From positions 1-24,380 of IMG/VR virus record IMGVR_UViG_3300005511_000081: a DNA stretch of 24,380 nt; one strand, 5' to 3'. Positions 1,188 to 18,451 of this stretch are shown piece by piece (the first letter of the stretch is position 1; each line of letters begins with the position of its first letter). Source of the DNA: a virus. The position numbers were made by a program, and so were the translations under genes. Under the pieces are notes generated by a model. The model did not search any database. It was given only the letters and a program-made list of their open reading frames with translations, and had not been told where the DNA came from.

Positions 1188-3290
1188 TTACAGGCCGGGG
1201 TTCATGTAGAAGCCGCGATAGTCGATCAGCGCGGCGCCGACGTCGAGGCGGGCTTTGGTCTTGACGCCGTCGACGTCGAAGCCGGCCTGCGTCTCGATAA
1301 AGACGCCCTCCTGCCCTTCGAGATGCGACAGCTCCATCGTGTCGAGCATCTGCGGATCGGCGACGAGCATCCAGCGCTTGTCGGTGATACGCGGCTCGAC
1401 GATGAGCTGCAGCTTGCCGACGAACGGGTTGACCTTGTCGGTCTGCGCCGCGGCGACGGCCGTGAGGAACTGCTCGGCCTTGGTCTCCATCAGCGGACCG
1501 ACCACGAGATAGGCCGGGCGAACGGTGATGAAGCCGCCTTCGTTCGACTTCTGCTGCGCCATCGCAGCCCGGCCTGCGGCGACGGAGTCGATCGTGATAT
1601 CGGCGGCGACGCCGAGATTGCCGTGCTGGTTCGAGAACAGCGCGAAGCCATCCGCCATCACCGGGTTGCTGATCACGAGACCCCACACGAGATCGCTTTC
1701 GAGGTCGCGCGCCTTGAAGCCGAACTGCGTCGGAATGCGGCCGAACAGCCGCTTGTCGTCGTTGATGATCGCCTGCCGGGTGATCGCGATGATCCGGCCA
1801 TAGGTCTGCAGCTTGTAGCTCATCCCCGTGTCGGACATTGCGCCGTAGGTGAACTCGGCGTTCTCCTTCACGAGCAGGAGCTGCGGCGCGTCGCCGAGGC
1901 CGATGATGCTGGTCTCTTTGAAGTCCGGCAGCGTCCCGCGCGAGACGATCGGGGAGAAAGTCTGCGGTGCCGCGAGATAGGCGGCGCGAAGCCGCTTGGC
2001 GGCCGCGTTCGAAAGCGCGTTCGCGAAGTCGCTCGTGGTCTGCGCCCCGTAACGCAGGCCGAGCGAGGCTCCTGCGATTTCGAGGCGGCCCATGCCCGAC
2101 GTCGAAATGCCGGTGCGCTGCACATAGTCGCGCGCCAGCTCCATCAGCGTCATGCCGCGGAACTCGCGAGCGGCGTCGATCTGTGCCTGCTCGAACTGAA
2201 CGGTCGGATCGGCGCGAAGGATCACCGCGGTTTCGATCGCCGAACGATAGCCATCGCTATCGGTGCCGGCGCGGCCGACGCGGACGTCGACGTGCGGGGT
2301 CTGCCGGCTCTCGATCAGGCGATCGCTGATTGCACGCTCGAAGTCGGCTTCGGTGAGAGTGCCGGCTTCGCTGCGCGCGATCAGATCGCGTTGGAAATCA
2401 CCGCCCAGCTCGCCGGCACGAGAACAGCGTTCCAGAATGCGGCTTGCCGCGATCGTGGGTGCGCGGGCGCCGGCGTCGGGAGCGGGGGCGGGAGCGGGTG
2501 CCGGGGTCGGCGCGGGGGTCGAGGCGGGAGCGGCCGCAGCCGCGCCGCCGGGGAGGTTGCGTCGCATATCTTCTTCCTCTTCGGTGGTGCCGTGCTGCTG
2601 ATTCCCATTTGCGGACCGAACCACGGCGTTCGGGTCGGCGGGAACGGGGACGAGGCTCGCTTCGAGAAGCTCCCAAGCGACGGCTCGCCAAGTCTCGTGA
2701 TCGTTTTCGTCGGTGGCGGTGATTTGCCACTTGGTGACGCGGTAGCCGATCGAGATCGCGCGCAGCTCGCCGGCTGCGACGCGCGCTTCGACCGCGCGGC
2801 CCGCGTCGGTATCGGCGAACTGCAGAACGCCGATGAGCTGACCGCCCTCGATCCGCACCGAATTGATGCGGCCGATCACGGCGTTCAGCTCGTACTGGTT
2901 GTGCGTGTCGAGCAGCGGACAGATGCCGGCGGCGACGCGTGAGACGTCGATCGCGGTCTCGCTGATTTCCAGCTCTTCGGTGAAATAGTAGCGCCGAACC
3001 GCCGTGCCGGCGGAAAGCACCGCCTCGACGGTGCGCGCCGTCGCGTCGTAGCTCTCGGGAGTGAGCGAGAGATCGCGCGTTCCTCGGCCATTCGCCTGCG
3101 GCTGACGACGCTCCTGCGGGTCTCCACCCGGTGCCTCGCGCGTCAGCATACCGGCGAGGCCAGCGCCGGCGGCCAAGGCGAGCAACGCGGCCTTCTTTCG
3201 GCTGATCGGCGGCAACGGCGTGGTCACCGTCTTGGGCGGCACGCGCGCGCCGGCCTCGGCGCCTTCCGGCACCGGGTTGGTCTTGGTCAT
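1188..3290 (-). CDS. Prohead protease / major capsid protein fusion
   Basis: A 700-aa polypeptide joining maturation protease and shell subunit. Residues 1-70 are a Pro/basic leader with a hydrophobic patch (about 34-49). Residues 71-225 form an HK97-type (S78) prohead protease: LLDTH with the catalytic His at about 130 and RAISIGYR with the catalytic Ser at about 180. Residues 235-275 are an acidic then Ala/Pro-repeat linker. Residues 300-700 form the major capsid domain (gpT/HK97-fold type: SSLs such as GMTLMELARDYV, AITRQAIINDD, VANPLMETKA-like core VVGPLMETKAEQF). Separate genes are usual; fused protease-capsid proteins are known in alphaproteobacterial prophages. AGGAG lies 7 bases before the ATG. 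An in-frame ATG at 2567 with its own ribosome-binding site could give free capsid protein. Confidence 0.92.
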   Translation of the reverse strand: MTKTNPVPEGAEAGARVPPKTVTTPLPPISRKKAALLALAAGAGLAGMLTREAPGGDPQERRQPQANGRGTRDLSLTPESYDATARTVEAVLSAGTAVRRYYFTEELEISETAIDVSRVAAGICPLLDTHNQYELNAVIGRINSVRIEGGQLIGVLQFADTDAGRAVEARVAAGELRAISIGYRVTKWQITATDENDHETWRAVAWELLEASLVPVPADPNAVVRSANGNQQHGTTEEEEDMRRNLPGGAAAAAPASTPAPTPAPAPAPAPDAGARAPTIAASRILERCSRAGELGGDFQRDLIARSEAGTLTEADFERAISDRLIESRQTPHVDVRVGRAGTDSDGYRSAIETAVILRADPTVQFEQAQIDAAREFRGMTLMELARDYVQRTGISTSGMGRLEIAGASLGLRYGAQTTSDFANALSNAAAKRLRAAYLAAPQTFSPIVSRGTLPDFKETSIIGLGDAPQLLLVKENAEFTYGAMSDTGMSYKLQTYGRIIAITRQAIINDDKRLFGRIPTQFGFKARDLESDLVWGLVISNPVMADGFALFSNQHGNLGVAADITIDSVAAGRAAMAQQKSNEGGFITVRPAYLVVGPLMETKAEQFLTAVAAAQTDKVNPFVGKLQLIVEPRITDKRWMLVADPQMLDTMELSHLEGQEGVFIETQAGFDVDGVKTKARLDVGAALIDYRGFYMNPGL
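2568..2590 (-). promoter_or_regulatory. Internal ribosome-binding site before the capsid domain
   Basis: On the minus strand, GAAGAGGAAGAAGAT directly precedes an in-frame ATG (2565-2567, residue 242 of the fusion). The GAGGA core is 7 bases from the ATG, ideal spacing. Initiation here would make a 459-aa capsid protein without the protease, starting MRRNLPGG. The same bases also encode the acidic EEEED run, so the motif could be incidental. Confidence 0.45.
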
Positions 3291-8591: not shown

Positions 8592-11500
8592 TCAGAGCGG
8601 GGGCAAGTCGTCATAGCCCGGCACCGGGCCATCATCCGGCGGCGCGCGCGAGCTGGTCCAATCCGCATCGCTGTGGTCGACCACCCTCCCCGTTGTCTGG
8701 TCGACGAAGTCGCCGGCGTGCTTGGTCAGGCGCATCCCGATCCACTGCATCCCGTCGCTGGCCTTCTTCACGAAGCCCTTGTCGAGCATGGCCTTGGTAA
8801 AGCCCTTCTGGCTCCACTCGCGCTCGCCGGCGGCCTTGCACCACGCGACGAACACTTCGTGCAGCTTGGAGGACTGGACGCGGCTTTGCGGGTCCATCTC
8901 AGTGCAGAGCTTGAGGAAGCGGGCCAGCGGGTCGCTATCCTCGCGATATTGCGCCGTCGCTTCCTTCACGGCCGCCGGCTCGATCAGACCGTGGGCGAGC
9001 CAATCGAGCAGGCCCTTCACCATGTGATTGAAGACGCCGGCGGCCTCGGCCCGGAGCTTCCCCGGAAGGGTCTCGTCGCGATCAGCTTCCTCGACGTGGG
9101 CGTTCCACGGCACCAGCTTCATGCGCCGCCAGATACCTTCGTCGGTGCCGGGAATGTCCGGCTTATAGTTCCCGCCGATGATCAGCTTGAATAGCGGCTG
9201 CAGGTCGAAGAAGCCGCGGTGCAACGCGCGCACCGCCATGGGCTCGCCGCCCGTCGCCGCCTTGATCAGCGCCTCATTGAGCTTCGCGCCCCGTTCCGGC
9301 TCGGAAGCCCGGAGCAGGCGCACGCCGCCGAGGCGGGCGAGATCGGGCGAGGCCTGCTCGCCGCGTTTCTTGATACCTTGGTCGAGGAACGTCTCGATCC
9401 CGATCGTCCCGGAATAGTCGCCCAGGACATGCGCCCACAGGTCGATCGCCGTCGACTTGCCGTTCGCGCCGAGGCCGTACCAGAACCAGAGCTTCTGCTC
9501 GCTCGTGTCGCCGCTGGCGGAATAGCCGGCGACCTGATGCAGATAGCGCCGCATCGTCGGCTCGGGCTGCGCCCATTCGAAGAACCCGTCATAGACGGGC
9601 GACACGGCGGCCGCGTCATACTCGACGGGCGCCAAGCGGGTGTTGAGGTCCTCCCGCCGATGCGCTTCGAGAGCCACGCTCGCGGATCGAGCGCCGTCCG
9701 GCAGCGTCTCTCGCGCGAAGCGGAGCGTCCCGTTCATGACGTTGATCGCGAACGGGTCGCGGTCGAAATCCTCGATCGACAGCGTCAACCAGCGGCGCGC
9801 GAGCGTGGCGATCGCCGCGGGCTTGCCGGCGGTCTCGGATTGGCGGCCGAAGATCGCGAGCTTCGTCGAGAGCGGCTCGAAGTCCTTTTTCCCCTTCGGG
9901 ATCAGCCGATCCATGCCGTGCGGGTTGAGCATCTCCCGGTACAGCTCGCCGTCCGGCATATCCTCTTCCCGGCGCTGAATGCCGGTCTCGGCCATGAAGC
10001 GGGCTTCGTCTTGGATCAGGCGCACGGTCTCGAACACGGCGGCAATGACCTCCGCCGGCGGCGACTTCTCGTCTTGATCGAGGACCTTCCAACGGCGGCC
10101 GTCCCACCCGAGCCAGCCCTTGGCCGTGGTGAACCGGAAGTTTGCGCCGAAGCGATCGCGAAACCGCTCGCCGATACCGAAATCGGTCATCGGGTAGCCG
10201 CAACACTTCATCGTCAGCAGCAGCGGCGCCGGATCGAAGCCGCGGTTATAGCCGTCGTCGATCGCGCGATCGATATCGGCATGCTGGACGTCGGCGATCC
10301 CTTCATAGACGTCCCACAGCGCTTCCTTGGCTTCGCTCGCGTCGACCAGCTCGCCGGCGATCCGGCGCCCGATGCTGAACGCGAGCCGCACCACGGCCTC
10401 TTTGGTCCGATCGACATTCTCGCAGCGGCGCTTGAGCCACGCGGCCGAGTGGCGCTTGAGCCTCGCCGCCTCGGCCTCCCCCAGCGTTGGCATGCCATCC
10501 GCCCTTCCGGGCCGGAAGGGTTCGTCATTTTCGGCGATGCCGCCCCCGGCGGGCGGGGCGGGCGCGCGGGCGCGCGGAGGGCCGGCGCGGGAGGGGCTGC
10601 GCTCCCTACGGGAGCGCGATGCGGCCGCGATCTCTCCGAGATCGCGAGGCTGCTCTATGCCGGCTGTCCATCCGGAGTTGATCGTGGCGTCGAGCTGCCG
10701 ATCGTCGTCGTTGCCCGGATTCGCGCGCGCGGCCGAGCGGATCGACGAGAGCGCGATCGCTTCATCCAGCACGCCGGCCGCGACCAGCGTCGCGATCTTG
10801 AAGGCGCTCTCGTTGAGCTGGCCGTTGCGCTTGCCGGTCCCGGCCCGCTTGATCTCCTGACACTCGCCGTCGAGGGCGCGCATCGCGTAGCGGCGCAGAT
10901 CGTCGTCGACGTCGGCCGACGCTGTCGCCGGCGATCGAGACGGCGATCGCGCGGCCGCGGGCAATTCCTCGAGCTGCTCGGCCGAGCGCTTGCGCTTGCG
11001 ATCGCGGAGGATCTGGATCAGCTCGGCGGGCGCCTCTTTGATCGAGGCGTCGTCGCGCCAGTCGCCGCGATCGCGCTTCCAGCCGTACCGACCCTTTTCC
11101 TTACCTTGGTCATCATACGTGATGCTGGGCGCGCCGATCACATATCCGCCGAGGCCGCGGACGTCGACGTGATCGGGCAGGTTGCCGCGGTTGCGGATCG
11201 CCTCGCCCTCGGGCTGGCGAAACCAGACATGGACGCCACCGGATTGCGTTATCGCGGTCAGCGACGTCGGCAGCGCGACGCCCATCTGCGCCTCAAGCTC
11301 GGCCTTCAGCTCTTCGAGCGAATAGGCGCGCTCGCCGATGACCTCGCCGGTTGAATCGTCGCACAGCTCTTCGACGCGCGGATCGAAGTCGAGCGCGAAG
11401 CATCCGTTCACGCCCATGGGCAGGCCGATCAGCGCGTTCGGATGCTGGCGCCACCACGCGGCGATCCGCGCTTCGTCGGTGGTCGCATCGTTCAGGCCCT

Positions 11501-11666
11501 TCCCCGTATAGGGGGCCTTGGCTTTGTAGGTTCCACTCTTCCCGGCGCCATTGGTCCAGGACTCGTCACGCTCGCGACACGGAAAGACCGGCCAGCCGCG
11601 CCGGGCATACTGCAGCGCCGCTTGCCCCATGGGCGAGAGCGGCGGCTTGGCTGAATTTGACGACAC
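8592..11666 (-). CDS. Bifunctional primase-polymerase / D5-like SF3 helicase
   Basis: A 1024-aa replication protein. Residues 10-220 are a Prim-Pol domain: GWPVFPC, catalytic ALDFDPR (about 91-97), SGGVHVWF (about 142-149) and DVRGLGGYVIGAPS. Residues 225-400 are a low-complexity Arg/Ala/Pro linker with a helical segment. Residues 485-690 match the D5_N/P4-primase C-terminal region. Residues 715-870 are the superfamily 3 helicase: Walker A GANGKST (733-739), RASEPERGAKLNEALIK, and sensor segment IIGGNYKPDIPGTDEGIWRR. The C-terminus is a winged helix (FVAWCKAAGEREWSQKGFTK). The GTG start is chosen because GGGGGGAA lies just upstream; a GTG 18 bases earlier lacks such a site. It should prime and unwind phage DNA at an adjacent origin. 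Confidence 0.93.
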   Translation of the reverse strand: MSSNSAKPPLSPMGQAALQYARRGWPVFPCRERDESWTNGAGKSGTYKAKAPYTGKGLNDATTDEARIAAWWRQHPNALIGLPMGVNGCFALDFDPRVEELCDDSTGEVIGERAYSLEELKAELEAQMGVALPTSLTAITQSGGVHVWFRQPEGEAIRNRGNLPDHVDVRGLGGYVIGAPSITYDDQGKEKGRYGWKRDRGDWRDDASIKEAPAELIQILRDRKRKRSAEQLEELPAAARSPSRSPATASADVDDDLRRYAMRALDGECQEIKRAGTGKRNGQLNESAFKIATLVAAGVLDEAIALSSIRSAARANPGNDDDRQLDATINSGWTAGIEQPRDLGEIAAASRSRRERSPSRAGPPRARAPAPPAGGGIAENDEPFRPGRADGMPTLGEAEAARLKRHSAAWLKRRCENVDRTKEAVVRLAFSIGRRIAGELVDASEAKEALWDVYEGIADVQHADIDRAIDDGYNRGFDPAPLLLTMKCCGYPMTDFGIGERFRDRFGANFRFTTAKGWLGWDGRRWKVLDQDEKSPPAEVIAAVFETVRLIQDEARFMAETGIQRREEDMPDGELYREMLNPHGMDRLIPKGKKDFEPLSTKLAIFGRQSETAGKPAAIATLARRWLTLSIEDFDRDPFAINVMNGTLRFARETLPDGARSASVALEAHRREDLNTRLAPVEYDAAAVSPVYDGFFEWAQPEPTMRRYLHQVAGYSASGDTSEQKLWFWYGLGANGKSTAIDLWAHVLGDYSGTIGIETFLDQGIKKRGEQASPDLARLGGVRLLRASEPERGAKLNEALIKAATGGEPMAVRALHRGFFDLQPLFKLIIGGNYKPDIPGTDEGIWRRMKLVPWNAHVEEADRDETLPGKLRAEAAGVFNHMVKGLLDWLAHGLIEPAAVKEATAQYREDSDPLARFLKLCTEMDPQSRVQSSKLHEVFVAWCKAAGEREWSQKGFTKAMLDKGFVKKASDGMQWIGMRLTKHAGDFVDQTTGRVVDHSDADWTSSRAPPDDGPVPGYDDLPPL

Positions 11667-11714
11667 TAATTCCCCCCGGAACACACGGGCTAAACTTGAT
11701 CTAGGTTGAGGCTG

Positions 11715-13323: not shown

Positions 13324-13802
13324 GCGAGCAGCCCCTCGATCTCGTCGATCGGCGTCGACCACCAGCCTTGCTTGCCCTTCATCGGCACGGGCGCCGGCAA
13401 GAGCTGCGGCGAGTCCAACCGCCAGCCGAAGCGCTCGTCGCGCCAGTCGCCCGCGATGCGATCGGCAAAGCCGATATGCTCGCGGAGGACCTCACTCGGA
13501 AGGCAGGAACCTAGAACCACTGTGCCGACCAGCGCACCGAGCGGGAGCGTGCGACGATACTCCACGCCGAACGCCGCGATCGCCAGCTCGTGCAGCTCGT
13601 CGCTGATCAGGCGCCGCGGCGGATAGCTCGCCGCCGCGTGGAAGCCGACGCGCTTGCCGTCATACTTCGACGGATAGCGCCGGCCGCGGGTCTCAAGCGT
13701 CTTGCGGTGCGCCGGTTCGAGGACGAAGCACAGCGACGCCCACGGTTGCCAAAGCGAGATGATCGGGAGCGCGTCGGGCTCGGCCGAGAACAGGTCAGCC
13801 AT
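13320..13802 (-). CDS. ASCH domain protein
   Basis: A 160-aa protein with the ASCH (PUA-like beta-barrel) pattern: PIISLWQPWASLCFV (about 13-27), KTLETRGRRYPSKYDGKRVGFHAA (about 33-56), LGALVGTVVLGSC (about 87-99) and FGWRLDSPQLL near residue 125. ASCH domains bind RNA or modified nucleosides, and some hydrolyse N4-acetylcytidine; which applies here is unknown. The ATG at 13802 overlaps the DUF5131 stop by 8 bases. A GTG 33 bases upstream is possible but has no better ribosome-binding site. Being between DUF5131 and methyltransferase genes, it may belong to a nucleic-acid modification set. Confidence 0.85.
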   Translation of the reverse strand: MADLFSAEPDALPIISLWQPWASLCFVLEPAHRKTLETRGRRYPSKYDGKRVGFHAAASYPPRRLISDELHELAIAAFGVEYRRTLPLGALVGTVVLGSCLPSEVLREHIGFADRIAGDWRDERFGWRLDSPQLLPAPVPMKGKQGWWSTPIDEIEGLLA

Positions 13803-15009
13803 GCGCCACCGCCGGCATCGCACTATGTTCGACACCGTCCAGGCGGCGCCCTGCCACGCCCTTCCCGACGCGCACGCTGATCAGCCCCGGCGTGAACGTC
13901 GCGGCATCGCCCCACCAATGGGACGGCTTGCCGGGGAAGGTTTCGCCCTCGGGGCCATCGGGAAAGCGCGAGAGGCCGCCACGCGTGACGCCGTCGCGGA
14001 CCTCGGTGAAAACTTCACCGGGGAGCCAGTCGCCCCATTGCTTGAAGAAGAACGGCACGCCGGCCTCGGCGCACTGGTCGCGGAGGTCACGCGCCCAATC
14101 CGGATGCATCGGCCGCGCGCGAGGGCCGCTCTCGCCACCGGCGATTACCCATCCGATCCGAGGCGAATCAGTGAAGTTCCCGGCCAACGGCTGGACGTAG
14201 TCGCCGAGGCGGTTGGACAGCTTCGTGGGAGCCTGCCCGTCGCGGCGCAGAACGATCTTTCGGAGATTGAGCGGCGCAAGCAGCGGCTCGCAAGAGAGAA
14301 ACCGCACTGCGGCCGACGTCGCCAACAAGTCCGGAATCCGCTCGTCGGCCGAGCGCTGATCTTCGACCGACACGCCGAGCCAGACGTTCGGCAGTGGGCG
14401 CCGCGGCCATGCCGGGCGGCCGATCAGGTCGCCTTCGGTAGTCCAGAACCGCTTATGCTCGAACAGCTCGGCGCCGCCGTGCAGGCCGAGCGTGATATCG
14501 TCGATCGCGCTGTTGATCTGGTCCCAGCGATCGTCGCCGCGCGGTTCGGCCTCAAGGTGGATCGTCTCGCCCGCGACCTTCACGTCGCGCGCCGGCGCCG
14601 GTTGCCATGTCTCGGCGAAATAGGCGCGCATCCGATCCGAGCGCTTCGTCAGCACTTGGAAGGTATGTTGCGGGCAGAGCGCCATGACCGCGAAGATCAG
14701 GTCGATCTTTTCGTCGGAGACGGACTGGTGGAACAGGTCGGACAGACTGTTGACGAAGTACGTCGTCGGCACCCGGCGCCGAAGCGGCGCGAGCAGCGCA
14801 TCCGAGCTGAAATTGATCTTGCCCGTCCAGACCGCGTGGCCGTTGACCATCTTTGCGGTGCCGGCGAACTTCTTCGCGATCGCCGGGTTCGGGTTGTGCA
14901 TCAGCCGATAGGCGTCGCGCATCGCGAAGCACCCTTTGCAGCCGGCCGAGTGGATGGTGCAGCCGACCAGCGGGTTCCACGTCCTGCCGGTCCACTCGAT
15001 CTTGCTCAT
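13795..15009 (-). CDS. DUF5131 (phage Gp37/Gp68) family protein
   Basis: A 404-aa protein of the family first named after phage Gp37/Gp68. Diagnostic pieces: MSKIEWTGRTWNPLVGCTIH, then SAGCKGCFAMRDA with three cysteines (about 17, 24, 27; the usual form is GCDNCYA), FVNSLSDLFHQSVSDE (about 85-100), FQVLTKRSDRMRAYF (about 117-131), NVWLGVSVEDQRSADERIP (about 208-226), RFLSCEPLLAPL (about 237-248) and WVIAGGESGPRARPMHPDWARDL (about 287-309). The three Cys resemble an iron-sulphur site of radical-SAM type, but the biochemical function is not established. ATGA overlap with the upstream gene. The family is frequent in phages and mobile elements. Confidence 0.92.
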   Translation of the reverse strand: MSKIEWTGRTWNPLVGCTIHSAGCKGCFAMRDAYRLMHNPNPAIAKKFAGTAKMVNGHAVWTGKINFSSDALLAPLRRRVPTTYFVNSLSDLFHQSVSDEKIDLIFAVMALCPQHTFQVLTKRSDRMRAYFAETWQPAPARDVKVAGETIHLEAEPRGDDRWDQINSAIDDITLGLHGGAELFEHKRFWTTEGDLIGRPAWPRRPLPNVWLGVSVEDQRSADERIPDLLATSAAVRFLSCEPLLAPLNLRKIVLRRDGQAPTKLSNRLGDYVQPLAGNFTDSPRIGWVIAGGESGPRARPMHPDWARDLRDQCAEAGVPFFFKQWGDWLPGEVFTEVRDGVTRGGLSRFPDGPEGETFPGKPSHWWGDAATFTPGLISVRVGKGVAGRRLDGVEHSAMPAVAHG

Positions 15010-15341
15010 GCGTGCCCTCCGAAGAACTCGGCGCCGACGCGGAGGGCGGCGCGCTTGCCGATATCGATGCCGGTGCGGAAGTTCATCGCGGCCGCCTCGG
15101 CCGCGCGACGCTTGTCCTTTTCGGTTGCCGCGCCGGCGATCAGCAGCCGGCCGAACATGCCGCCGGAAAGCACCGCGCCAGCCGTCAGGATCATCGAAGC
15201 CGCTTCGAGCCGATCGGGCTCGTCGGCCAGATGCTCCCGAGCTGCTCGCTCAAGCTCGATCACGAGATCGACGATCTTCTGATGCCGAGGATCGTCGCCG
15301 GCGATTTGGCGCAGGACCTCTGGATTGCTTGCGCCGGTCAT
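15006..15341 (-). CDS. Hypothetical small phage protein
   Basis: A 111-aa protein starting at the ATG overlapping the stop of the TOPRIM gene (ATGA); its own stop overlaps the DUF5131 start in the same way. The first half is acidic and helical (DPRHQKIVDLVIELERAARE). The middle segment ILTAGAVLSGGMFGRLLIAGA (about 51-71) is hydrophobic and glycine-rich and could be membrane-associated. The last part is basic (TEKDKRRAAEAAAMNFRTGI). I do not recognise a family. The coupled translation suggests it is made together with its neighbours. Confidence 0.65.
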   Translation of the reverse strand: MTGASNPEVLRQIAGDDPRHQKIVDLVIELERAAREHLADEPDRLEAASMILTAGAVLSGGMFGRLLIAGAATEKDKRRAAEAAAMNFRTGIDIGKRAALRVGAEFFGGHA

Positions 15342-16363
15342 TCGAACGTCCACCCTTGGACGAGCCGGGAAATCTCGCGCCGTACTTCCTCTTGGGCGGG
15401 TTCGTTCTGCGCCTCGACGGCATCCGCATGACTCTCGGGAATGAAGCGATTGATGGCGCTTTCGAGCAGGGCCATGGCCCTCCGAGGGTTGCCGACCAGA
15501 GCGTTCGCCTCGCACTTCCACACGCCGAAACGTTCGATGTATTCTTGCACGTAGGGCTTGTTGTGGTCGGGATGGCGCGGGTCCGAGAGGTCGCGGCCGC
15601 CGCCGGTTTCGAGGTTGCCGATCTTCATCAGACCAAGGTCATCAATCTGATTTTCGGTCAGCCCGATCGGGACGACGTCGAAGTCGGGCCAATCCCAATC
15701 CAGCCCCTTCAGATTGGCGCACGACATGATGTTGCGATGCAAGCCGTCGACGATGTGAAGGCCCTTGGGATCGTGATCGCCGATCGCGAGCAGGATGCAG
15801 CGTCGGCCTGCGGCAGTGTGATCCCGGAAGCGCTTGAGGATCGCGAGCCGGGTGTGAATGTCGGTGTCACCCTTACCGTTGGTGATCCGCACGTTGTACC
15901 GGTCGGCAGTCGATCGGAAGATTTGGACAAGGTCCTTCTTCTCGACGATCATTTCGACGTAATAGTCGAGCCCGTCCCAATAGCCGGTTTGATAATAGGA
16001 ATCGGCCCAAGACCTTAATTCGGTGCTGATCTGATTGACGGCGTGGCGGGCCAGAGCTTCGGGGGAATAATCAGCCGCGTCGAAATCGCGGACTTCGGTC
16101 GCCATGCGCGAGGCGTCCGGCTCGATCACGTCCGGATCAAGCTCACCGTCCTTGCGCATGTCGGTCAGCAGCTTCTCGAAGCGGTCGAACTCGCCCTTCG
16201 TGATCAGGCCCAAGCCTTCGGCGTAATAGGCCCAGCCGCGGGGGCCGAAGCGGTAGCCCGTGTCGGCCGACATGCGCTCGATCGCTTCGCCCATCTCCCG
16301 CCGCGCTTCCTTACGGAGATGCAGCGGGCCAGACGTCGGCGGCATTTGCAGATGATAGGACAC
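15338..16363 (-). CDS. TOPRIM protein related to Spo11/TopoVI subunit A
   Basis: A 341-aa protein. The GTG start is set by GGAGG 8 bases upstream; it lies two bases after the zinc-finger gene stop. Residues 20-90 resemble the winged-helix of Spo11/TopoVI-A: RGWAYYAEGLGLI (with Tyr46-Tyr47 where the cleaving Tyr sits) and FDRFEKLLTDMRKDGELDPD, followed by VIEPDASR. Residues 133-215 resemble its TOPRIM domain: YYVEMIVEKKDL (acidic Glu141) and ILLAIGDHDPKGLHI (DxD then G). Length fits the A subunit (about 350-390 aa). No B-subunit ATPase is visible. It may nick or break DNA during phage replication or recombination, or act as a primase-like or nuclease TOPRIM. Relationship inferred by motif only. 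Confidence 0.7.
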   Translation of the reverse strand: MSYHLQMPPTSGPLHLRKEARREMGEAIERMSADTGYRFGPRGWAYYAEGLGLITKGEFDRFEKLLTDMRKDGELDPDVIEPDASRMATEVRDFDAADYSPEALARHAVNQISTELRSWADSYYQTGYWDGLDYYVEMIVEKKDLVQIFRSTADRYNVRITNGKGDTDIHTRLAILKRFRDHTAAGRRCILLAIGDHDPKGLHIVDGLHRNIMSCANLKGLDWDWPDFDVVPIGLTENQIDDLGLMKIGNLETGGGRDLSDPRHPDHNKPYVQEYIERFGVWKCEANALVGNPRRAMALLESAINRFIPESHADAVEAQNEPAQEEVRREISRLVQGWTFE

Positions 16364-16365
16364 TC

Positions 16366-16560
16366 TCAGAACCTCCGTGGAGGGCGCGGGTAGGGTTCGC
16401 GGCATGGCGCGCAGCGGCGGCCGACAAGGCGCGGGCTGTGATCGCCGCAATCGGCACACTCGCCGGGCTCGCCGGCGGGAACGGGCTGGCGGGCGACGCG
16501 GATCGCCTCGGCGAGCATCGTGTCGGCGTAGTGCTGGGCAAGGTCGACTTGGTCGGCCAT
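16366..16560 (-). CDS. Short TraR/DksA-type C4 zinc-finger protein
   Basis: A 64-aa protein starting MADQVDLAQHYADTMLAEAI with cysteines at 35, 38, 50 and 53 (GECADCGDHSPRLVGRRCAP then C). This is the arrangement of TraR and phage DksA-like proteins, which bind in the RNA polymerase secondary channel and alter transcription without ppGpp. The long coiled coil of DksA is absent, as in TraR. The ATG shares a base with the previous stop (TGATG). In an early operon it may redirect host transcription. Pro/Arg-rich last ten residues. Confidence 0.82.
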   Translation of the reverse strand: MADQVDLAQHYADTMLAEAIRVARQPVPAGEPGECADCGDHSPRLVGRRCAPCREPYPRPPRRF

Positions 16561-17612: not shown

Positions 17613-17984
17613 TCAGGCGCTCGCCGGCGAGGCCGGACCTTGCCGCCGGCGCAACAGCGCCGAGCCGCGCTCGATCATCCGACCCGGCATCGGCATGCGC
17701 CAGCCCGAGCCGGCCCGCGCCGAAGGCTGGTCGCACCAGCGTAGGGAGGTCGGCCGATAGAAGTCGCCCGCCTTGACGGCGCCGCGGCTCCACAGCGTGA
17801 TCGCGGCGCCCATCCGTTCGCCGGGAGTGAGCGTGCCAGAGAGCAGCCGGTCGACCGCGTTGACGCCGATCGTTGCTTCGAGCTGGCGGATTGACTCGCC
17901 GGGATTGATCGCCGTGCCGATGACCCAAGCGAGCCGGTGCGCACCTTCGTTCGGCACGCGCGCAGCGAGATACATTGCAGGCAT
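17613..17984 (-). CDS. Putative HTH protein of the early operon
   Basis: A 123-aa protein starting MPAMYLAARVPNEGAHRLAW with a TAATG overlap to the CII-like gene. Residues 30-62 (ESIRQLEATIGVNAVDRLLS, then GTLTPGERMGAAI) read like a lambda-repressor-type helix-turn-helix in which GVNAVDRLLSG is the recognition region. Residues 68-92 (RGAVKAGDFYRPTSLRWCDQ) resemble the tail of short alphaproteobacterial phage regulators. The last 25 residues are basic (MIERGSALLRRRQG). A DNA-binding regulatory role is likely but inferred. Confidence 0.6.
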   Translation of the reverse strand: MPAMYLAARVPNEGAHRLAWVIGTAINPGESIRQLEATIGVNAVDRLLSGTLTPGERMGAAITLWSRGAVKAGDFYRPTSLRWCDQPSARAGSGWRMPMPGRMIERGSALLRRRQGPASPASA

Positions 17985-18451
17985 TAAGCGCCCTCCGCCA
18001 TGGTGAGAAGTTGCCGGTCGAGCGTCGCGAGAACCGCGATCGCCTCTTCGATCTGGACGCGCGCCGAGGCGATTTCGGGCGCCTCGACCTTGCCGTCGCT
18101 GACTGCGGCGCAGATCGATTGCGTCACGTCGGCCGCCTCTTTCGCGAGCCGGCCGACCGTGGCGATCAGATCGTCGCGCCCCGGAGCCTTGGAAGGCAGC
18201 GGAACGAAGACGCCACCCATATGCCGGCAGAGCGCCCGCGTTACGTGCGGCCATCCCTCGCGATCGCGAGCCAGCGGTTCGAGGTCGGCGACGACGTCGA
18301 TCGCGACGAACCGCTCGGGGCAGTTGATGTTCTGCGCCTCGCCGAGAACGCTCTTGCCGACGCGGCAGAAGCCGGCGGCAGCTTCGAGCCCACCGACGCC
18401 TTTGACCATCTCGCCGGTCGCAAGCTTGAGTGCGATGTTCTCGGGCTTCAT
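17984..18451 (-). CDS. Phage regulatory CII-like protein
   Basis: A 155-aa protein, second gene of the early operon, in the position of lambda cII. The N-terminal part (MVKGVGGLEAAAGFCRVGKS, VLGEAQNINCPERFVAIDVV, then ADLEPLARDREG) contains a helix-turn-helix-like segment: VGGLEAAAGFCRVGKSVLGEAQN, followed by the proposal that PERFVAIDVVADLE forms a following helix. The C-terminal half is helical (DLIATVGRLAKEAADVTQSI and IEEAIAVLATLDRQLLTM) and should oligomerise. This arrangement recalls phage regulatory CII family proteins of proteobacterial prophages. Its ATG overlaps the Cro-like gene stop (ATGA). Activation of lysogeny genes is inferred, not shown. Confidence 0.6.
   Translation of the reverse strand: MKPENIALKLATGEMVKGVGGLEAAAGFCRVGKSVLGEAQNINCPERFVAIDVVADLEPLARDREGWPHVTRALCRHMGGVFVPLPSKAPGRDDLIATVGRLAKEAADVTQSICAAVSDGKVEAPEIASARVQIEEAIAVLATLDRQLLTMAEGA

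Follow-up and report, generated by a model that had tools for sequence, protein, structure and literature searches.

The 24,380-base window analyzed here, IMG/VR virus record IMGVR_UViG_3300005511_000081, encodes a stand-alone Mini-A protein, an identification on which homology, a fold match and the lack of a B subunit agree. We consider it likely, at roughly three chances in four, that this protein is a DNA cleavage subunit of the Topo VI-A/Spo11 type which works without an ATPase partner and serves phage replication or recombination from the early region of the genome. Spo11 itself cuts DNA to start recombination in human egg and sperm cells. Mini-A proteins were named in 2020 as viral truncated homologs of Top6A (Takahashi et al. 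2020, as cited in PMC7614492 and PMC8185306), and the window protein adds one member to this already described viral family, its novelty in that sense being low. A 2021 review recorded no characterization of any Mini-A or Topo VIII of archaeal origin (PMC8185306), and our literature search found no study measuring Mini-A activity. The additions made here are the identification of Tyr46 as the candidate nucleophile, the invariance of the whole Topo VI active site and clasp, the lack of a GHKL ATPase in the complete genomes examined, and the mobility of Mini-A as a single gene. Mini-A keeps equivalents of the full Topo VI/Spo11 active site and of its regulatory salt bridge in the absence of the ATPase, and single-gene proteins of this family are therefore small, tractable models for the control of Spo11-type cleavage, in which the invariant residues define exactly which positions matter for testing.

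Family assignment and genomic setting

In a comparison with PHROGs, residues 27-339 of the window protein match phrog_6247 ("DNA topoisomerase"; E=6.1e-40), and all 55 diverse relatives that we collected match this PHROG family alone. An earlier note on this DNA, made from the sequence alone, had recognized a stand-alone Spo11/TopoVI-A-like protein of the Mini-A kind and proposed a profile search as a check. The identification holds, and the search succeeds through phrog_6247 but not through the Pfam TP6A_N and TOP6A TOPRIM models, neither of which matches the window protein above cut-off and which score weakly in just one or two relatives. A tblastn search with the window protein matched 51 phage records. 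The homolog of Pseudomonas phage NP1 (26.5% identity, E=3e-3) is the Mini-A example of a 2021 BioEssays review (PMC7614492), and LC711081, an archaeal plasmid gene annotated as "Topo mini-A" in GenBank, is 33.3% identical over 84% (E=9e-42). Maximum-likelihood analysis puts the window protein in a six-row branch (support 100/99) within a 20-row clade (100/99) that includes LC711081; NP1 groups in a sister part of the family, with Topo VI-A far removed from both. Long branches make the positions of HCIV-1 and LC711082 uncertain. The window branch (relatives of 66-83% identity, with records from Sphingomonas and Brevundimonas) has R-G-W-x-Y where the NP1 branch has R-Q-L-Y-Y.

The window protein resembles Mini-A in size, in the order of winged helix and TOPRIM, in its viral setting and in the absence of a B subunit. 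It shares with Top6A the TOPRIM fold and equivalents of the catalytic tyrosine, the acidic tetrad and the Arg-Glu clasp, but is shorter, comes without a B subunit and has diverged beyond the Pfam cut-offs. A comparison by hhalign with a Topo VI-A alignment gave a probability of 11%, probably because that alignment is shallow (four bacterial sequences), and sequence searches of the PDB with the window protein and with the 55-sequence profile yielded no match. The dN/dS values of 0.11-0.15 against relatives point to purifying selection, which shows that the Mini-A gene encodes a maintained protein. A chance occurrence of the motifs is ruled out by this selection together with their conservation in 55 of 55 homologs.

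The Mini-A gene (15338-16363, 341 codons for 341 amino acids, supported by its translation, phrog_6247 and the AlphaFold model) is on the minus strand, a point that the earlier note left unstated. It starts with GTG at 16363, and a good ribosome-binding site, GGAGG, can be read directly in the sequence 8 bases ahead of it (16372-16376, minus strand). The gene belongs to a minus-strand run whose start lies close to a CII-like activator (17984-18451). A 156-aa regulator-like protein, a 107-aa protein and a DksA-like protein are encoded ahead of Mini-A in this run; after it come, in order, genes for a 111-aa protein, a DUF5131 protein, an ASCH-like protein, a DNA methyltransferase and a primase-helicase (8592-11684). 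Its location between the activator and the primase-helicase bears out the early-operon setting that had been proposed. Immediately upstream lies the 64-aa DksA-like zinc-finger protein (16366-16560, minus strand; phrog_54, E=2e-10), which is retained only in the nearest relative, in both of its records (L001 and L011). The downstream 111-aa protein (15006-15341, minus strand) overlaps the Mini-A stop codon; it has no matches in Pfam, PHROG or PADLOC, and no homolog of it was found beside other Mini-A genes. Elsewhere in the window are genes for a terminase, a portal protein, a fused protease-capsid protein, a CI-like repressor and a serine integrase, and the source is therefore a temperate phage; the window is probably a fragment of its genome, since no tail genes were recognized.

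Two further genes of the window deserve mention. The DUF5131 protein, of the phage Gp37/Gp68 type (13795-15009, minus strand), also matches the candidate defense models PDC-M41B and PDC-M30B of PADLOC. The head maturation protease and the major capsid protein form one 700-aa frame (1188-3290, minus strand; phrog_4523, E=2e-196).

Fold, active site and proposed mechanism

The window protein, modeled with AlphaFold (mean pLDDT 90.7, pTM 0.82), has a probable winged helix ahead of its TOPRIM domain. The best PDB matches in Foldseek are both chains of 1d3y, the A subunit of M. jannaschii Topo VI (prob 1.00, E=1.1e-3). In VIA-align, five Topo VI-A entries come first (Z 9.5-10.4; 3.3-4.0 Å over 147-153 residues) and a sixth, 9o7o, is found at Z 8.9, the match to Topo VI-A covering the TOPRIM half of the protein. 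Comparison with these solved entries delimits the TOPRIM domain to residues 127-309 (15437-15985, minus strand). Structure prediction, which had been suggested as a further check, thus places the protein with the solved Topo VI A subunits and not with an unrelated TOPRIM family: DnaG, RecR and topoisomerase II score no higher than Z 6.8, far under Topo VI-A, and none of the unrelated families considered (DnaG-type primase, RecR, type IIA topoisomerase, OLD) accounts for the winged-helix tyrosine. A fold search of BFVD with the window protein gave no useful match. The probable 5Y-CAP-like winged helix, residues 14-87 (16103-16324, minus strand), was delineated on a separate model of residues 1-125 (pLDDT 89.0). 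For this N-terminal half the top row is again 1d3y (model 15-85 against chain 72-143), at a Z of 4.7 that is tied with unrelated winged helices. If that range is ungapped, Tyr46 would align with residue 103 of the M. jannaschii protein, its catalytic tyrosine.

The active site can be read against that of M. mazei Topo VI, for which a 2026 cryo-EM study identifies Y106 as the nucleophile, describes an acidic tetrad formed by E202/D254/D256/E342, and finds that cleavage is restrained by an electrostatic clasp, R102-E342 (PMC13040014). In our alignments, the Topo VI-A rows have R-x-x-Y-Y, with the catalytic tyrosine four positions after the arginine; next come a glutamate on the first strand of TOPRIM, the D-x-D motif and the glutamate of EQQAF, which corresponds by count to M. 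mazei E342. These features recur in the same order in the window protein: R42...Y46, E141, D196-x-D198, and E285 within KCEANAL. On the basis of motif order and spacing, the profile alignment being non-significant, we equate Arg42 (codon 16238-16240; all codons on the minus strand) with R102, Tyr46 (16226-16228) with Y106, Glu141 of VEKK (15941-15943) with E202, Asp196 (15776-15778) with D254, Asp198 (15770-15772) with D256, and Glu285 (15509-15511), which takes the place of the EQQAF glutamate, with E342. All six, as well as K142, are invariant in the alignment of 55 homologs (55/55), and the R+4 spacing of Tyr46 is that of Topo VI-A. Tyr47, by comparison, is present in just seven of the 55 rows, the window included. 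Tyr46, being invariant and matching the Topo VI-A motif order, is therefore the candidate nucleophile, whereas Tyr47 is not conserved. The motifs were thus located correctly from the start (Y46/Y47, VEKKDL with E141, GDHDPKG with D196 and D198); the tyrosine pair exists as described, but it is not the canonical one, Y46 occupying the second tyrosine position of R-x-x-Y-Y and Y47 lying one beyond.

By analogy, the window protein most likely acts on DNA as a homodimer, a metal-dependent tyrosine transesterase making nicks or breaks that it may also reseal. In proteins of this fold, each active site is assembled in trans from two subunits. Two copies would probably pair via their TOPRIM domains, so that Tyr46 of one copy could attack a DNA strand at the metal site of the other (E141, D196, D198); this would leave the protein attached to the 5' end of a nick or staggered break, which could be resealed. 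R42 and E285 would probably restrain the tyrosine until DNA is bound. The phage would express Mini-A in its early region, where the protein likely relieves or breaks DNA during replication and recombination. We infer the dimerization, the covalent chemistry, the clasp and the role in the phage from Topo VI and SPO11. Mouse SPO11 alone can break DNA as a dimer with its active sites in trans, the tyrosine and the metal site being contributed by different subunits (PMC11922746), and a lone A subunit is therefore a workable enzyme. The parallel is that of a Topo VI-A-type cleavage subunit without strand passage; the window gene differs from Spo11 in being a phage gene and not a meiotic one, and no TOP6BL-type partner was found.

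The same features could be read as those of an enzyme that acts mainly as an ATP-independent topoisomerase, nicking and resealing DNA to relieve torsional stress in phage replication instead of making lasting breaks. We regard this as possible though rather doubtful. It fits the name of the PHROG family, the invariance of R42-E285, whose counterpart restrains cleavage in Topo VI (PMC13040014), the ability of SPO11 to reseal single-strand breaks (PMC11922746), and the relaxation of DNA without ATP by the related M. marina Topo VIII (PMC7614492). However, ATP-independent relaxation by type IIB enzymes is weak in the reported cases (PMC7614492), and a strand-passage ATPase was not found in the phages examined.

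Stand-alone status and mobility

The observation that the window lacks an ATPase B subunit, already made in the earlier note, was confirmed and extended. Neither Topo-VIb_trans nor HATPase_c has a match in the window and 10 related virus records (11 virus contigs), both models being matched in control genomes. Furthermore, none of 13 other complete phage genomes carrying a homolog contains a Topo VI-B or GHKL ATPase gene, and the Topo-VIb transducer is absent from three bacterial genomes that carry a Mini-A gene. The genes surrounding Mini-A were compared in two ways. By tblastn, the window neighbors are retained only in the nearest relative (virus record L001, which is also Sphingomonas sp. 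R-74633, L011). In eight further relatives, of 66-79% identity and from virus records and Brevundimonas, Mini-A is present and none of the 11 neighboring proteins tested; for the frameshifted relative L009 (83%), one flank was shorter in this comparison. All-against-all clustering of ~78 neighborhoods, at the blastp level and with crude ORF calling, gave top neighbor families that reach seven loci each and that by inspection look like DNA methyltransferase and DnaQ-like exonuclease. Neither approach revealed a conserved partner gene. In NP1, Mini-A is accompanied by a ligase, RNase H, Sak4 and a Cas4-type exonuclease, and there as elsewhere its neighbors are ordinary replication and recombination genes. 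Since most close relatives (66-79%) have only Mini-A in common, the gene travels by itself, a single-gene module without an obligatory partner.

These results bear on the possibility that a host-encoded or unrecognized phage protein substitutes for the B subunit, in the way that TOP6BL serves Spo11. It is established that every Topo VI-A or Spo11 protein studied in depth is partnered in vivo. Nevertheless, we consider such a substitute unlikely for Mini-A, given that no neighbor gene is common to the relatives of 66-79% identity, that no neighbor recurs, and that the three bacterial genomes with Mini-A lack a Topo VI-B transducer. Less probable still is a hydrolytic, tyrosine-independent TOPRIM nuclease directed at host or rival DNA, like JetD/MksG of Wadjet and MksBEFG: these proteins share the Topo VI-type TOPRIM fold and rank just under Topo VI-A in the VIA-align comparison (MksG Z 9.2, JetD Z 8.5), but they accompany SMC complexes and lack the winged-helix tyrosine (the 5Y-CAP-like domain of MksG has no tyrosine candidate; PMC10123090), whereas the window protein stands alone and keeps Tyr46, invariant in 55 rows, with no match to an SMC-type operon (MksBEF/JetABC) around it, phage early genes as neighbors and no PADLOC match. 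A toxin or defense function was likewise considered and rejected, the Mini-A protein being without a PADLOC match, and nothing in this analysis favors an attack on host DNA by Mini-A.

Returning to the proposed ATPase-independent cleavage subunit, we would add two proposals, to which we give almost as much credence as doubt. The clasp R42-E285, kept although the ATPase is absent, may be opened by DNA binding or dimerization alone. The R-G-W-x-Y branch may in turn represent a distinct Mini-A subfamily, a one-gene module for recombination or topology spread across unrelated phages.

Variant homologs

Several homologs depart from the common form. In the haloarchaeal virus HCIV-1 (L016:2830-3861), DFNP replaces DHDP, so that the position of Asp198 is taken by Asn, the only metal-site change seen. 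One Mini-A homolog (L055:2615-4678) is split by an apparent intein of ~340 aa that starts CFDDKTEILTDKGW, ends SGN-S, and sits in the TOPRIM domain just ahead of the conserved KGWSS segment. A Desulfamplus genome with two Mini-A genes encodes two further proteins of 428-429 aa (L113:925-2208 and L114:1339-2625), whose match to the Mini-A profile is confined to the TOPRIM half (E=6e-21 and 5e-18, respectively) and which have a different N-terminus, with no obvious match to R-xxx-Y in the winged-helix region. In Roseobacter phage RDJL Phi 1 (L017:2500-3588), the annotated topoisomerase is the TOPRIM half alone; its winged-helix counterpart is encoded upstream in a different frame, and the record thus carries a frameshift. 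The 83% relative of the window protein (L009:6001-7018) has a frameshift near residue 243, either real or a sequencing error.
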